The translations under genes were made by a program, and so were the position numbers. The notes under the pieces were generated by a model, which did no database searches, was not told the DNA's origin, and saw only the letters and a program-made list of their open reading frames with translations. Below, in pieces: positions 32,700 to 38,167 of a stretch of DNA of 38,221 bases; position 1 is the stretch's first letter; each line of letters starts with the position of its first letter. This stretch comes from Prevotella sp. (GTDB taxonomy: Bacteria; Bacteroidota; Bacteroidia; Bacteroidales; Bacteroidaceae), in NCBI GenBank assembly GCA_017470055.1, contig JAFUFD010000070.1:1-38221 (forward strand), written 5' to 3'.

Positions 32700-32726
32700 C
32701 CTCTCCCCCAACAGGGGACAGAGAGG
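32700..32726. other. GC-rich inverted repeat
   Basis: CCTCTC and CCCC (32700-32709) pair with GGGG and GAGAGG (32714-32726) around an AACA loop with an ACA bulge. No T-run follows. Possibly a terminator or an old repeat; the rest of 32727-32860 is AT-rich with no gene. Confidence 0.4.
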
Positions 32727-32864
32727 GGGCTTTCTCCATTTCTCAAAGTACGAAGTATATAACACCACCAAATATTTTTCCCTTTTTCTTTTTTTGTTTC
32801 AGAAATTGTTTGTATCTTTAAAACAAGTTTTCAAGATACTCTCGCTCGAAAATATCCAAATAAA

Positions 32865-32896
32865 TTTGGTATTTTCCTCACTTATTCGTATCTTTG
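32865..32896 (+). promoter_or_regulatory. strong promoter of the structured RNA
   Basis: TTTG (32865-32868), a 20-nt gap, then TATCTTTG (32889-32896). It lies about 360 bp from the next long gene. Confidence 0.8.
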
Positions 32897-33175
32897 CAAC
32901 ATCGCTTGTTAGCCCCAAGGGGTAAAGCGGGCGGTCTTATATATGAGAAAGACGTTTTCGAACGTCTGTCGTTGTGCATAACGAATCTCGCAAATCCGTA
33001 AACTCACAACAGACAGATGACAACGAAGCGTCACGTGGTGCGTTTCTATATACCATATATTATATATAGTTCGTGCTGGCGTGGGCTAACTGCGTTGTCT
33101 ATCCTGTGTGAGTTGGGCAATGCGAGAGCCTGTTATGCCAGGATGGGCAAAGAAACAGACACCTACGCCTTTTTT
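32897..33175 (+). ncRNA. structured RNA or long leader ahead of the RES gene
   Basis: One hairpin has a TTCG loop (AGACGTT 32950-32956 with AACGTCT 32961-32967). A long arm of nested pairs follows: 32976-32982 with 33132-33138 (GCATAAC/GTTATGC), 32986-32992 with 33121-33127 (TCTCGCA/TGCGAGA), 33003-33008 with 33107-33112, 33019-33025 with 33093-33099 (GACAACG/CGTTGTC), and 33046-33052 with 33063-33069 at the tip. GTCTGT 32964-32969 could pair with ACAGAC 33155-33160, which would open the first hairpin. A T6 run ends at 33175. Small open frames inside (13 codons from 32944 with stop; 55 aa from 33017 to 33184) may be coding or chance. No named family recognised. Confidence 0.65.
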
Positions 33176-33253
33176 GTATCATAAGTTAACCTAATAATTA
33201 ACTACTAACTGCCGACTCTGGGGTGTTTTGTTGGCAAAGAAAAGTATACCTCT

Positions 33254-34198
33254 ATGAATAAAACTAATAATGATCATTCCTCCAACACGCACATTTTTCA
33301 GCAATTAGTAAACTCAGCAAAAAGTCAGGCCTATCCAATCTATAGTGGCAAAAATGTTATGGAATTGCCCTTGTATTTTGCCTTTGGAAAATCCTTCAGT
33401 GATAATTATGATAATTTTGCTTCACAATATCTTGATAATCTCAGAGGAAACAATTTAGATAGTGATACTATCAATCTTGTAGATAATCTTATAAAGAATC
33501 TTCGCAAAACAATCAATGAGTATTTAAATGGGAAATTAGCATCTGCTTATTCTTCGTTTAAAGATGCAATGGAACTAATTAAAAGCCTCCTTCCTATAAA
33601 GACAATACATAACAGAATTTTCTATAGGATGAGAGCAAATGGAGGAATAACTGATATAAAAGAATTCTATCATATTCCTTTTGATAAAATCTATTTATCT
33701 CAAAGTGAACGTTTCAGCATTGAAGGCTATCCATGTCTGTATTTGGGGTATTCCAAACATGTCTGTGAAATAGAGGTATCAGGTGGTTCTCTTGCAAAAT
33801 TTGCTTTGAAAGAGCCATTGGATAATATCCTTGATTTAACATTAGGACAGGGTGATGGGAAAAAGGATATTCCAGAAATAGACCTTGTCAAAATCTATCC
33901 TTTGATAGCGTCTTGCTATATTGTTCCGTTTTACAGTATCATGCAAAAGAAAGAATGCAGACCAGACAAATCCTTTTTCCGGGAAGAATATATCATACCA
34001 CAATTATTGACCCTTTATTTGAAAGAAGAAGGTATTGCTAATGGAATTATCTACTATTCGGTAAAAGACCCAAATCTTGATCTTCAAGGAATAGGTGAAA
34101 AAGATTTCAGAAATCTTGTGTTATTTACAAATAGAGAAAATAATACCAACGAGAATTATGACAACGAATTAATAAGTAAATTTGACATAACACTATGA
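33254..34198 (+). CDS. RES-domain protein, solitary and AT-rich
   Basis: 314 aa. The RES core is at about 122-290: RIFYRMRANG supplies the conserved Arg, HIPFDKIYLSQSERFSIEGYP and CLYLGYSKHVCEIEV the Glu-bearing block. RES toxins degrade NAD+ and are usually paired with an Xre-type antitoxin. No such gene flanks this one, and the 120-residue N-terminal helical region is not part of the basic domain. Base composition is far more AT-rich than in the genes on either side, a sign of transfer. It is preceded by the structured RNA, and its TGA overlaps the ATG of the following small ORF. Confidence 0.8.
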   Translation: MNKTNNDHSSNTHIFQQLVNSAKSQAYPIYSGKNVMELPLYFAFGKSFSDNYDNFASQYLDNLRGNNLDSDTINLVDNLIKNLRKTINEYLNGKLASAYSSFKDAMELIKSLLPIKTIHNRIFYRMRANGGITDIKEFYHIPFDKIYLSQSERFSIEGYPCLYLGYSKHVCEIEVSGGSLAKFALKEPLDNILDLTLGQGDGKKDIPEIDLVKIYPLIASCYIVPFYSIMQKKECRPDKSFFREEYIIPQLLTLYLKEEGIANGIIYYSVKDPNLDLQGIGEKDFRNLVLFTNRENNTNENYDNELISKFDITL

Positions 34199-34272
34199 TA
34201 CGACTACTGACCTTAGCAGCAATATTCTTGTGCTGCATGGCGACATCGTTCGGTCAGTTTAAATGTAATTAA
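34195..34272 (+). CDS. 25-aa signal-peptide-only ORF
   Basis: It starts at an ATG overlapping the RES stop (ATGA), runs MIRLLTLAAIFLCCMATSFGQ and stops four residues later. This is a complete Bacteroidetes-type signal peptide without a mature protein. It may be the 5' remnant of a lost secreted gene, or a small membrane peptide coupled to the RES gene. Too short for statistical support. Confidence 0.45.
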   Translation: MIRLLTLAAIFLCCMATSFGQFKCN

Positions 34273-34325: not shown

Positions 34326-35345
34326 ATGAAAACAAACATTACACAAAAGTTATTGTTGCTCGTTGTGAGCCTACTGTCCTGCATCCGCATGAGTGCGTAT
34401 GACTTCTGGGCACAGAATGAGGATGGTGTAACTATTTACTATAATTACATCAATAATCGTACAGAGTTTGAGGTAACATATAAGGATACAGAATTTAAAA
34501 GTTACACTGTATCTTCTATAGTAATTCCTGCAACGGTCAATGGTTTGCCTGTGACGAGCATCGGAAGCCTAACGTTCTCTCGTTGCACAAGTCTAACCTC
34601 TATTAATATTCCCGATGGTGTGACATATATTGGAGGTGGTGCGTTCTCAGGTTGCAGCAGTCTGACATCGATTACAATTCCCGATGGTGTGACGAAAATC
34701 GGATGGGATGTGTTCAATGGCTGCAGCGGTCTGACCTCCATTAATATTCCCGATGGTGTGACGAGCATCGGAGAGTATGCGTTCTCTCGTTGCACAAGTC
34801 TAACCTCTATTAATATTCCTGATGGCGTGACATATATTGGAGGTGGTGCGTTCTATGGCTGCAGTAGTCTGACCTCCATTAATATTCCCGATGGTGTGAC
34901 GAGTATTGGGGGGTATGCATTCTATGGCTGCAGTAGTCTGACCTCCATTAATATTCCCGATGGTGTGACGACTATCGGAGGTGGTGCTTTCTCTGGTTGC
35001 AGTAGTTTAACTTCGATTAGTATTCCAGATGGTGTGACGACTATCGGAGGTGGTGCTTTCTCGTCGTGTTCTGGTCTGACTTCCATTACGATCCCCAATA
35101 GTGTGACGAGTATTGGAGGTAGTGCTTTCTCTGGTTGTGTCAACTTAATCTCTATGTCTGTAGAAGACGGCAATCCCAAATATGATTCAAGAGACAATTG
35201 TAATGCAATCGTTGAGACAGCCACAAATACACTGATAAGTGGCTGTAAGTCTACTATTATCCCTAATAGTGTGACGACTATCGGGGAATATAACCAAGAA
35301 ATCAAGGGTGAGACGAATGTGGAGATTATTCCCGTAAGTGCCTGA
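34326..35345 (+). CDS. BspA-like leucine-rich repeat surface protein, probably cut short
   Basis: 339 aa. Signal peptide at residues 1-24 (ending SCIRMSA), a short N-terminal region, then eight 23-residue repeats from about residue 88 of the form SLTSINIPDGVTYIGGGAF-x-GC (BspA/LRR_5 type), a divergent unit (LISMSVEDGNPKYDSRDN) and a final NSVTTIGE. After that the repeat pattern breaks off into EYNQEIKGETNVEIIPVSA and stops, with no sorting tail. BspA-like proteins bind host matrix or other bacteria. Units 1 and 4 are almost identical in DNA (207 bp apart). The break is next to the integrase genes and may mark an integration point. Confidence 0.85.
   Translation: MKTNITQKLLLLVVSLLSCIRMSAYDFWAQNEDGVTIYYNYINNRTEFEVTYKDTEFKSYTVSSIVIPATVNGLPVTSIGSLTFSRCTSLTSINIPDGVTYIGGGAFSGCSSLTSITIPDGVTKIGWDVFNGCSGLTSINIPDGVTSIGEYAFSRCTSLTSINIPDGVTYIGGGAFYGCSSLTSINIPDGVTSIGGYAFYGCSSLTSINIPDGVTTIGGGAFSGCSSLTSISIPDGVTTIGGGAFSSCSGLTSITIPNSVTSIGGSAFSGCVNLISMSVEDGNPKYDSRDNCNAIVETATNTLISGCKSTIIPNSVTTIGEYNQEIKGETNVEIIPVSA
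34574..34850 (+). repeat. 207-bp higher-order duplication in the BspA-like gene
   Basis: The stretch from 34574 (GTTCTCTCGTTGCACAAGTC and on for about 70 bp) returns at 34781 with only two mismatches seen in the part checked. This is three 69-bp repeat units, so a block was duplicated on top of the basic repeat. Confidence 0.75.
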
Positions 35346-35578: not shown

Positions 35579-36808
35579 ATGAAAGATGAAAAATTCAAGG
35601 TACTGCTCTACCTCAAAAAGAGCACGACAGACAAGAAAGGAAAGGCTCCCATCATGGGGCGTATCACCCTCGGAAACTCGATGTCTCAGTTTTCGTGCAA
35701 GTTGTCCTGCACCTCTGATTTGTGGAATCCCCGTGAAAGCCGTCTGAACGGCAAGAGCAAGGAGGCGGTTGAGGTGAACCGCAAGATCGAGCAACTGCTG
35801 TTGTCAATCAACAATGCCTATGAGTCCGTGAAGGCACGTCAGTCGGACTTCTGTGCCGCTGACGTTAAGGCGGTCTTGCAGGGCAGCATCCAGTCGCAAG
35901 TAACGCTGATGCAGTATGCACAGCGCATGAAGGACGAATGTCATTCACGCATTGGCGTTGACCGTGCCAAAGGGACTTACTACCACTACAAGGCTTTCTG
36001 CGACTACCTGCAAGCCTTCATCGTGAAGAAGTTCAAGGCCGAGGACATTGCTTTCGGGCAACTGACAGAGCAATTCATCTATGATTTCCAGTCGTACATC
36101 TGCGACGAATGCGGACATGAAGGCTCTGCCCGTCATTTCCTTGCCCTCTTGAAGAAGGCTTGCAAGGGTGCCTTCAAGGAAGGCATTGCCGAAAGGCAAT
36201 ATTTCGCCCACTTCTCCCTGCCGAGAAGACGCGAGACCACTCCCAAGGCTCTCAGCAGTGAGACCTTTGAGAAAATCCGTGACCTACAGATTGACCCGAA
36301 GCACGAGGGGCATATCCTATCGCGCGACATGTTCCTGTTCGCCTGCTACACTGGCGTACCCTACTCCGATGTGGTGTCCGTCACGGATGATAATCTCTCC
36401 ATCGACGAGGACGGCAACCTCTGGTTGAAGTACCTCCGTCGCAAGAACGAGAACCGTGCAGCCGTGAAACTGCTGCCGGAGGCGATAGCCCTCATAGAGA
36501 AGTACCACGACGATACGCGAAAGACGCTCTTTCCGTATGTATTCCACCGTACCCTCCATGCCCATCTGCGTGGCATATCAGGCTGGATAGGACTGAAAGA
36601 ACCCATCCACTTCCATCAGGGACGACACTCGTTTGCCAGTCTGATAACGCTTGAAGAGGGTGTGCCGCTGGAAACCATCAGCCGTATGCTCGGCCACACG
36701 AACATCAACCAGACACAGGTCTATGCCCGTGTCACCCCGAAGAAACTCTTTGAGGACATGGACAAGTTCATCGAAGCAACCAAGGATTTTAATTTCATCA
36801 CAAAATAA
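35579..36808 (+). CDS. tyrosine recombinase (integrase), first of a pair
   Basis: 409 aa. An N-terminal arm-binding-like region (VLLYLKKSTTDKKGKAPIMGRIT) and a SAM-like core-binding domain (about 105-215) precede the catalytic domain. Catalytic residues: H346 and R349 in FHQGRHSF, H373 in LGHTN, and nucleophile Y382 in TQVYARV; the beta-hairpin Lys is probably in YLRRKN (285-290). The Arg I place is Pro (TGVPYSDV, P261). Loss of Arg I is known for IntDOT-type enzymes of Bacteroides conjugative transposons, where Ser is found. It is followed after 12 nt by the second recombinase, behind an AAGGAG site. Confidence 0.93.
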   Translation: MKDEKFKVLLYLKKSTTDKKGKAPIMGRITLGNSMSQFSCKLSCTSDLWNPRESRLNGKSKEAVEVNRKIEQLLLSINNAYESVKARQSDFCAADVKAVLQGSIQSQVTLMQYAQRMKDECHSRIGVDRAKGTYYHYKAFCDYLQAFIVKKFKAEDIAFGQLTEQFIYDFQSYICDECGHEGSARHFLALLKKACKGAFKEGIAERQYFAHFSLPRRRETTPKALSSETFEKIRDLQIDPKHEGHILSRDMFLFACYTGVPYSDVVSVTDDNLSIDEDGNLWLKYLRRKNENRAAVKLLPEAIALIEKYHDDTRKTLFPYVFHRTLHAHLRGISGWIGLKEPIHFHQGRHSFASLITLEEGVPLETISRMLGHTNINQTQVYARVTPKKLFEDMDKFIEATKDFNFITK

Positions 36809-36820
36809 GGAGAAACGATT

Positions 36821-38167
36821 ATGAGAAGTACATTCAGCCAACTGTATTACATCAACCGTGCCAAGGTGAAGGCCGACGGCACCACAGCCGTCATGTGCCG
36901 TATCACCATTGACGGAAAGAAAACTGCACTGACGACGGACATCTACTGCCGTCCGGAGGACTGGAACGCAAAGAAGGGAGAGATTTCCATTGCAAGGGAC
37001 AACAACCGACTCATCTACCTGCGCAAGCGGATTGACACCCTCTACGACGAGCAACTGCGTGAGAACGGTGTCATCACTCCCGAAATTCTGAAGAACATCA
37101 TCACTGAAAAGACAAAGAAGCCCACGACACTGCTGCAAATGGGCGAATGGGAACGGGAACGACTGCGCATCCGTGCCAATGAGTTGAACAAGGTGAACAC
37201 CTACCGCCAGAGCCGTAGCCTGCAAGCCCATCTGCAAGAGTACCTGCACTCGCTCGGCAAGAAAGACATTGCGCTGACGGACATAGACGAAGCCTTCGGG
37301 CAAGGCTACAAGGTGCATCTGGTGAAAGGCAAGAACCTCGGCCCTGCACAGGCCAATCATTGCCTGATATGGCTTAACCGCCTCTTGTGGCTCGGCGTGG
37401 ATATGGAAATCCTGCGCTGCAATCCCATAGAGAACGTGGAATATGAGAAGAAGATACAGACCCGTCACCGCTTCGTGAACCGTGAGGACTTCAAGAAACT
37501 GCTTTCAACCCCGATGGCAGACGAGCGAATGGAGATGTTCCGCCACTGGTTTATCTTCTCCAGCCTGACGGGACTTGCATACGTGGATGCCCGTGGCTTC
37601 TACCCTCACCACATCGGCAAGACAGCCGACGGGCGGCGCTATATCCGCATCAACCGCCAGAAAACGAAAGTGGAGTCGTTCATTCCCCTGCACCCCATAG
37701 CAGAGCAGATACTCGACTTGTATAACACCACTGACGATGAAAAGCCCGTCTTTCCGCTGCCAACCCTCAACAGTGCCTGGACGGACATTCACGAAATGGG
37801 ATTTGCCATCGGCAGGACTGAAAACCTCTCGGCACACATGGCCCGTCACACTTTCGGCACGATGCTCGTATCGGAAGGTATCTGCTTGGAAAGCATAGCC
37901 AAAATGATGGGTCACTCCAGCGTGAAAAGTACACAGGTGTACGCTAAGATCACCGATGACAACATCAGCCGTGACATGGACAGGCTGCAGAAACGCCGGG
38001 AAGCAAAGGGACTGACAACCAGCGACACCACGGCAGAGCACAACAAGGCACTGCTACAGAAGAAACTTGACCGTCCGAAAGAACTGCTCCGTGAAGACCC
38101 ACGTCTGGCAATGAAGAAGGTCGGACGTCCTAAGAAGAACCTATTGTATCACATTCCAACAGACTGA
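36821..38167 (+). CDS. tyrosine recombinase (integrase), second of a pair
   Basis: 448 aa. Same architecture: N-terminal SQLYYINRAKVKADGTTAVMC, core-binding domain about 100-205, catalytic domain with H339 and R342 in SAHMARHTF, H365 in MGHSS and nucleophile Y374 in TQVYAKI. Arg I is Ala (TGLAYVDA, A253). A basic C-terminal tail of about 60 residues (KKLDRPKELL ... KKVGRPKKN), ending in an AT-hook-like GRPKK, is longer than usual and may bind DNA. Paired integrases of this kind are found at one end of several Bacteroidetes mobile elements. Confidence 0.93.
   Translation: MRSTFSQLYYINRAKVKADGTTAVMCRITIDGKKTALTTDIYCRPEDWNAKKGEISIARDNNRLIYLRKRIDTLYDEQLRENGVITPEILKNIITEKTKKPTTLLQMGEWERERLRIRANELNKVNTYRQSRSLQAHLQEYLHSLGKKDIALTDIDEAFGQGYKVHLVKGKNLGPAQANHCLIWLNRLLWLGVDMEILRCNPIENVEYEKKIQTRHRFVNREDFKKLLSTPMADERMEMFRHWFIFSSLTGLAYVDARGFYPHHIGKTADGRRYIRINRQKTKVESFIPLHPIAEQILDLYNTTDDEKPVFPLPTLNSAWTDIHEMGFAIGRTENLSAHMARHTFGTMLVSEGICLESIAKMMGHSSVKSTQVYAKITDDNISRDMDRLQKRREAKGLTTSDTTAEHNKALLQKKLDRPKELLREDPRLAMKKVGRPKKNLLYHIPTD

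Follow-up and report, generated by a model that had tools for sequence, protein, structure and literature searches.

Transcription attenuators, whether trp-type leaders, T-boxes or transcriptional riboswitches, are built on a terminator and an antiterminator that exclude each other, and in systems of the CopA/CopT type kissing RNAs turn into longer duplexes. The leader RNA analysed here, about 330 nt long (32899-33235, + strand), has features of both; it lies ahead of a RES-domain gene in a 38,221-nucleotide stretch of DNA from Prevotella sp. (assembly GCA_017470055.1, contig JAFUFD010000070.1), hereafter the window. Its two halves can pair with each other in a long rod, and it is proposed, with a probability of roughly 0.6 and from sequence comparison, to function as a cis-acting transcription-attenuation switch in which the rod would allow read-through and the separate halves would terminate. 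A preliminary description of the window had noticed a promoter-driven structured RNA with mutually exclusive pairings ahead of the RES gene; that much stands, and a special link to RES does not. Candidate structured RNAs named Bacteroidales-1, Bacteroides-1, Bacteroides-2 and Bacteroid-trp were reported earlier from the same or a near group of bacteria (PMC2864571). Another report describes HMP2_1881, a 108-bp candidate found mostly in Bacteroidetes, often near radical SAM domains, and expressed in 13 of 13 places (PMC8040213, Fremin and Bhatt 2021).

Pairing between the two halves of the leader

The family was sampled as 120 loci, 20 of which came from BLAST searches of the window's own genome and its relatives and 100 from covariance-model matches in the own genome and the genus. 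Pairing was tested in 112 loci, eight having been dropped where the core pattern was not found (four on the 3' side, four on the 5' side), and the last candidate was used where two 5' candidates were present; folding energies were compared in 101, the other 11 of the 112 being without a usable promoter match. A close-relative alignment comprised 28 of 34 listed relatives. Counts of two-sided changes were compared with shuffles, and pairing in cis was compared with 2000 permutations and then with nearest relatives. Strands a, core and b lie in the 5' half, with their complements in the 3' half, and the rod is made up as follows.

32899-33235, + strand: whole leader RNA, beginning at about the presumed transcription start and closing with the last hairpin
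32976-32983 with 33131-33138, + strand: helix a, with two-sided changes in 6 of 8 pairs (28-sequence alignment)
32986-32992 with 33121-33127, + strand: core helix, joining complementary loops of the two halves, paired in 111-112 of 112 copies at six positions
33001-33008 with 33107-33114, + strand: helix b, 93.5% paired, with two-sided changes in 5 of 8 pairs
33019-33025 with 33093-33099, + strand: helix e, 93.4% paired, with zero two-sided changes and narrowly above permutations

The strands were found to match copy by copy. Helix a, which has 83 different strands in 112 loci, forms 7.39 of 8 pairs in cis versus 4.00 between copies; each of its eight positions is paired in 95-109 of the 112 copies, and all four Watson-Crick types occur at positions 1 to 7 (numbered 0 to 7). 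The corresponding values for the core are 5.99 of 6 in cis and 5.57 between copies. For helix a and the core, none of the 2000 permutations reached the observed mean pairing; helices c, d, e, f and P6 (those of the separate halves being listed below) and the pairings labelled s1 and K3 were likewise above all 2000, e only narrowly, and two negative-control segment pairs gave null results, the observed value being reached in 972 and 237 of 2000 permutations. In the nearest-relative control a, b, s1 and K3 stood out, helices a and b surpassing the nearest relatives in 99-100% of the 112 loci. The 28-sequence alignment had all seven core pairs 100% paired, with two-sided swaps in two of them, and in the rod as a whole 96.2% of cells were paired, while two-sided cells numbered 135 versus 39.0 in shuffles. 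As these compensatory changes exceed the controls, the leader can be regarded as a conserved structured RNA, and it is close to certain from the alignments that a long rod joins its 5' and 3' halves, matched copy by copy. The covariation over homologues that the preliminary description had called for is thus present, and it confirms the long structured arm noticed there; 32899-33184 folds to -103.6 kcal/mol with a z-score of -5.31, and 0 of 200 shuffles were equally low.

Several copies per genome in unrelated places, about 90% alike in the own genome, might also be expected of a mobile element or dispersed repeat whose structure had arisen by chance. Such an origin is barely credible in view of the copy-by-copy compensation of pairs, the constant orientation and position of the copies between promoter and gene, and the lack of any match in plasmids, phages and viral contigs in the searches made.

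Exclusive folds and the proposed switch

When each half is folded alone, a second fold is predicted, with uneven support, in which the 3' half would form a GC-rich stem (P6 and d) followed by a U-run. The elements of this fold are listed here together with the other helices and hairpins outside the rod.

32901-32935, + strand: 5' hairpin P1 of the minimum-energy fold, varying in sequence and length among relatives
32950-32956 with 32961-32967, + strand: UNCG-type hairpin h (TTCG), with 99.0% of cells paired and, among close relatives, without two-sided changes
32951-32958 with 33025-33032, + strand: helix f of the fold-alone state, above 2000 permutations, p 0.024 versus nearest relatives
32971-32976 with 33005-33010, + strand: helix c of the fold-alone state (5' half), above 2000 permutations, p 0.047 versus nearest relatives
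33038-33042 with 33072-33076 and 33046-33052 with 33063-33069, + strand: AU-rich helix g, in both states, with two-sided changes in 3 of 12 pairs
33078-33085 with 33162-33169, + strand: stem P6 of the 3' domain, terminator-like, 99.4% paired in 100 sequences, with two-sided changes in 3 pairs
33097-33106 with 33139-33148, + strand: helix d of the fold-alone state (3' half), 95.7% paired in 100 sequences, with two-sided changes in 6 of 10 pairs
33170-33175, + strand: U-run after P6; a T run of at least 4 occurs in 111 of 120 loci, of at least 6 in 80 of 120
33211-33235, + strand: last hairpin; pairing of its loop, 33221-33228, with 33157-33164 can give K3, which overlaps P6

The 100-sequence alignment of P6 and d was fitted to the structure, and gave 97.3% of cells paired and 111 two-sided cells versus 25.5; a separate alignment made on sequence only gave 97.1% and 18 versus 5.6. 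The fold-alone set was 96.4% paired in the 28-sequence alignment. A last hairpin able to pair through its loop was found in 88 of 112 loci; the rate was 57% when downstream regions were swapped and 29% when they were shuffled. The TTCG hairpin of the preliminary description was located at 32950-32967; it is absent from the minimum-energy fold of the window, and its 5' strand is common to helix f. The switch had been placed there in a GTCTGT segment pairing either in this hairpin or with ACAGAC, and the latter pair does occur, in place of h, in the minimum-energy fold of the window. Among the 28 close relatives GTCTGT is found in 28 and ACAGAC in only 20, which makes the pair, on this comparison, typical of a subfamily; there is stronger support for other exclusive pairings.

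The pairings compete for the same residues. Positions 32976 and 33005-33008 belong both to helix c and to a or b, 33097-33099 to d and e, 32951-32956 to f and h, and 33162-33164 to P6 and K3; in addition, the rod helices a and b cross c and d. Because the folds share nucleotides and cross each other, the complete pairing sets cannot coexist. With RNAs ending at the U-run, the core was present in 97 of 101 whole molecules and P6 in 1 of 101, and the 3' domain folded alone contained P6 in 87 of 101. The mean gain from the rod was 14.1 kcal/mol, with 6.5 for the window, and it fell to 4.3 kcal/mol when halves were swapped between copies; the own half was better in 93 of 101.

It is from the exclusive sets, the fold energies and the U-run after P6 that attenuation is deduced, the separate halves terminating and the rod reading through; its trigger and direction, like termination itself, we infer from the folds. 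During transcription the 5' half would fold first, through f and c. Without contact between the halves, P6 with its U-run would end transcription; should the core loops meet (CUCGCA with UGCGAG), the strands would exchange into the rod, P6 would be dismantled and transcription would continue into the gene, with the last hairpin holding the freed P6 strand through K3. The balance would be set by some signal, be it a ligand, a protein, polymerase speed or temperature.

A number of observations weigh against attenuation by these two folds. In the 28-sequence alignment f, c, P6 and d show one-sided changes only, and the two-sided pairs of the fold-alone set sit in g, which is common to both states. 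Versus nearest relatives, d is not significant (p 0.077), the signals for c, f and P6 are weak (p 0.02-0.05), and helix e of the rod is not significant either (p 0.57); in its number of further pair types the rod is unremarkable (169 of 500 shuffles). High-scoring loci predominate among the 120, of which 100 were hand-picked from listed matches and hence non-random. With its 76-nt interior P6 does not resemble a textbook terminator, and a terminator pattern scan did not list it. Since K3 lies past the U-run, it cannot itself prevent termination and would act only after read-through, and since the default energy favors the rod, the fold-alone state would need kinetics or a ligand.

One pseudoknotted fold combining parts of both sets is also conceivable, and in its fullest form the leader would be static, with both sets partly formed, and would control translation or mRNA stability near the start codon, not transcription. 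There is covariation in both pairing sets, the conserved last hairpin sits near the ATG and past the U-run, and P6 could presumably retain 5 of 8 pairs beside K3. However, the long helices share nucleotides and cross, P6 and the rod core occurred together in 0 of 101 minimum-energy folds (by a method blind to pseudoknots), and the U-run is retained in most copies; a static leader is accordingly considered improbable, though not negligible.

A stricter form of switch, in which near-invariant core nucleotides (GGCAAUGC..GCC; AA..GCA) would bind a metabolite or a protein and so select the fold, is entertained tentatively, at rather less than even odds. These positions show little or no variation across all 112 loci, which is more than pairing requires, and up to 16 copies per genome precede different genes in the manner of a regulon. 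The invariance is partly selected, however, because members were chosen partly by a pattern containing these letters; moreover, the downstream genes share no pathway and the ligand is purely putative.

Distribution, placement and downstream genes

In the own genome (G000, 125 contigs), BLAST identified two more near-full copies of the leader at 90% identity (contigs C102 and C38), and a match was found in 13 of 60 relatives, a count that includes the own genome. A covariance model was then available from the 3' domain (101 positions, 21 sequences; match threshold E<=0.001 in the genus search). With the own genome included throughout, it matched 110 of 150 genomes of the genus, 133 of 201 of the family (24 of 30 genera, up to 16 places per genome) and 34 of 247 of the order (27 of 174 genera); the own genome itself has six places, five of them at E below 1e-14. 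In a draw from the phylum, which doubles as a check on false matches, 0 of 295 further genomes matched, the own genome alone making 1 of 296. A pattern scan of named genomes returned at least 116 stretches with the leader pattern. Among the matches listed (80) were Xylanibacter rarus, Bacteroides bouchesdurhonensis and bins named Parabacteroides, Muribaculaceae and Prevotella; two of these 80 titles are Clostridia and Lachnospiraceae bins (L226 and L230), which are taken as presumed binning errors. One contig (L207) carries two pattern matches on the same strand, 1.2 kb apart. Viral contigs gave no match to one exact pattern, nor did phages and plasmids in blastn at 1e-5, and carriage of the leader as phage or plasmid cargo was rejected. 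With Rfam 15 at gathering score only tRNAs were found in the window and one tRNA in 15 further family loci; a lax search of 32700-33300 returned weak unrelated matches only, at E 2.5 or more. That the leader belongs to a large, strongly conserved and uncharacterised Bacteroidales family is, from these searches, close to certain.

The leader is embedded in its locus as follows.

32865-32896, + strand: promoter, with -33 TTTG at 32865-32868 and -7 TATCTTTG at 32889-32896, 20 nt between
33254-34198, + strand: RES-domain gene of 314 aa, first gene downstream of the leader
34326-35345, + strand: gene for a BspA-type leucine-rich-repeat surface protein, second gene downstream

The consensus promoter of the preliminary description is thus borne out; its TTTG and TATCTTTG conform to the Bacteroidetes -33/-7 promoter type. 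TAnnTTTG precedes the 3' domain in 111 of the 120 loci. Homology covers the stretch from just after the promoter: in an 11-copy alignment, similarity starts directly after the -7 element and stops at the hairpin near the start codon, with upstream sequences and downstream genes unrelated between copies. The extent first proposed, 32865 to 33184, ends too early, as the hairpin at 33211-33235 is also part of the element. The promoter stretch itself (window 32840-32898; e.g., L004-L030), with palindrome-like CCAAATAAATTTGG and CTCACTTATTCGTANCTTTGCA, is repeated in the genome and makes up most of 46 BLAST matches; it was rejected as a conserved unit, since it also precedes housekeeping-like genes without the RNA. 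At one contig end (L022; the first 200 bases of G000:C1) this promoter stands three times head-to-tail at a spacing of about 73 bp.

In 118 of 120 loci a sense open reading frame (ORF) begins no more than 380 nt downstream, and its ATG lies 55-90 nt past the end of the model in 71 of the 118. The leader is thus situated between promoter and gene in the same orientation, as a cis-regulatory mRNA leader would be, and such a role is very likely. An own promoter and a U-run would also suit an independent small RNA with its 3' end at the U-run, working in trans. That is unlikely, however, given the sense ORF at a favored distance, the loop-pairing hairpin past the U-run, and rod strands that match within a copy and differ between copies, which favors action in cis.

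Of the genes behind the leader, the scan covered 103 of 118 first and 67 of 83 second genes, some as shortened sequences. The first genes had 74 Pfam families, including 12 genes with BspA-type repeats, two RES and five radical SAM target peptides; the second genes included 10 with BspA-type repeats, three GLUG and two radical SAM. No common pathway was seen among these first and second genes. Exported first genes were not significantly enriched (58 of 118 versus 13 of 38 control ORFs, p 0.13). A PADLOC scan of the 103 first genes gave scattered matches and no common family, and a defence role of the leader genes was rejected on that account. At several loci, the window included, a short gene stands ahead of a large secreted repeat protein. 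FRG, RES and DUF2971-like genes recur as first or second genes, often before such a protein (L091, L048, L089, L145 and the window). The leader has been kept ahead of similar genes across several genomes (L136, L158 and L169; L115, L125, L131, L132 and L137). In the latter five it precedes Cys-rich peptides matching a radical SAM target family, and in L131 and L137 the next frame resembles a radical SAM enzyme.

The RES protein of the window scores 19.7 bits against Pfam RES (E 9.3e-4), below the cut-off of 23.2, and no sequence match among PDB chains was obtained up to E 10. On the + strand, from leader start to RES, there is no ORF of at least 50 aa except a 55-aa frame. A RES-Xre toxin-antitoxin was rejected, as RES is below cut-off and no partner ORF lies between leader start and RES. 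The preliminary description had suggested that the RNA controls RES specifically or acts as its antitoxin. In favor of an RNA antitoxin or dedicated regulator, the RES gene follows directly without an adjoining antitoxin gene, and a RES relative in genome G096 likewise has the leader. But RES accounts for only 2 of 103 first genes, its homologues (E<=1e-5) occur in 5 of 150 genus genomes versus 110 of 150 for the RNA, and three of the five RES loci lack the leader, two having it. Specific control is contradicted by these counts; an antitoxin of type III fails in that the RNA is not linked to one toxin family, and the whole reading, already largely refuted, is exceedingly improbable. The RES gene is, judged by its counterparts elsewhere, one of many passengers behind the leader. 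The same description had named a known leader family ahead of unrelated genes as grounds for its own refutation, and these grounds apply in that the genes are unrelated, save that the family is not a known one. Its 55-aa frame exists and is not conserved, 31 relatives with an ATG giving 7-72 aa in the three frames (9, 7 and 15), and was rejected as a protein; an upstream MRKTFS frame was likewise rejected as a conserved protein (23 relatives, 12-83 aa).

Further downstream, a 25-codon frame with the look of a signal peptide (34195-34272) overlaps the RES stop codon as ATGA; the same place in L033 is the start of a long secreted protein, of which the frame in the window may be a remnant. The BspA gene is followed by two consecutive tyrosine recombinase genes (35579-38167) that have phage-integrase and arm-binding domains.

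Comparison with described systems

The size of the leader, its covariation, copy number and order-wide spread, and its absence from Rfam would suggest that unlinked genes, those for leucine-rich-repeat surface proteins among them, answer to a common signal in hosts that are dominant gut and rumen bacteria. Taken to its furthest extent, and with the balance tilted against it, the proposal is of an order-wide orphan switch class in Bacteroidales, with up to 16 copies per genome, whose halves would recognise each other through copy-specific pairing and complementary loops. An invariant core would read a common signal, the rod setting the gene on and the two hairpins with terminator setting it off, in a regulon rich in surface proteins. 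Copy-specific pairing would be an unusual means to stop similar leaders from interfering mutually.

A literature search found no paper naming the element, full texts and supplements being outside its scope and an earlier mention thus possible. Those candidates of the Bacteroidales-1, Bacteroides-1 and Bacteroid-trp type that have an Rfam entry gave no match to the window and 15 loci; Bacteroides-2 has no entry in the table used. HMP2_1881 resembles the leader in some respects: the 3' domain of the leader has about 101 positions, and radical SAM target peptides make up 5 of 103 first genes and radical SAM 2 of 67 second genes. Unlike the present family, it is presented in that description without the full leader, the second fold or a regulon, as far as a comparison of descriptions shows. 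HMP2_1881 may be the 3' domain of the leader family, listed unnamed.

As in CopA/CopT, complementary loops could start a strand exchange, but in the leader both partners are in one molecule. The likeness to attenuators lies in a leader between promoter and gene with two exclusive folds, one of which is a GC-rich stem followed by a U-run. Unlike attenuators, the leader has about 330 nt, whole halves of which would zip together through complementary loops; many unrelated genes lie downstream, and P6, at which termination is presumed, closes a large interior.
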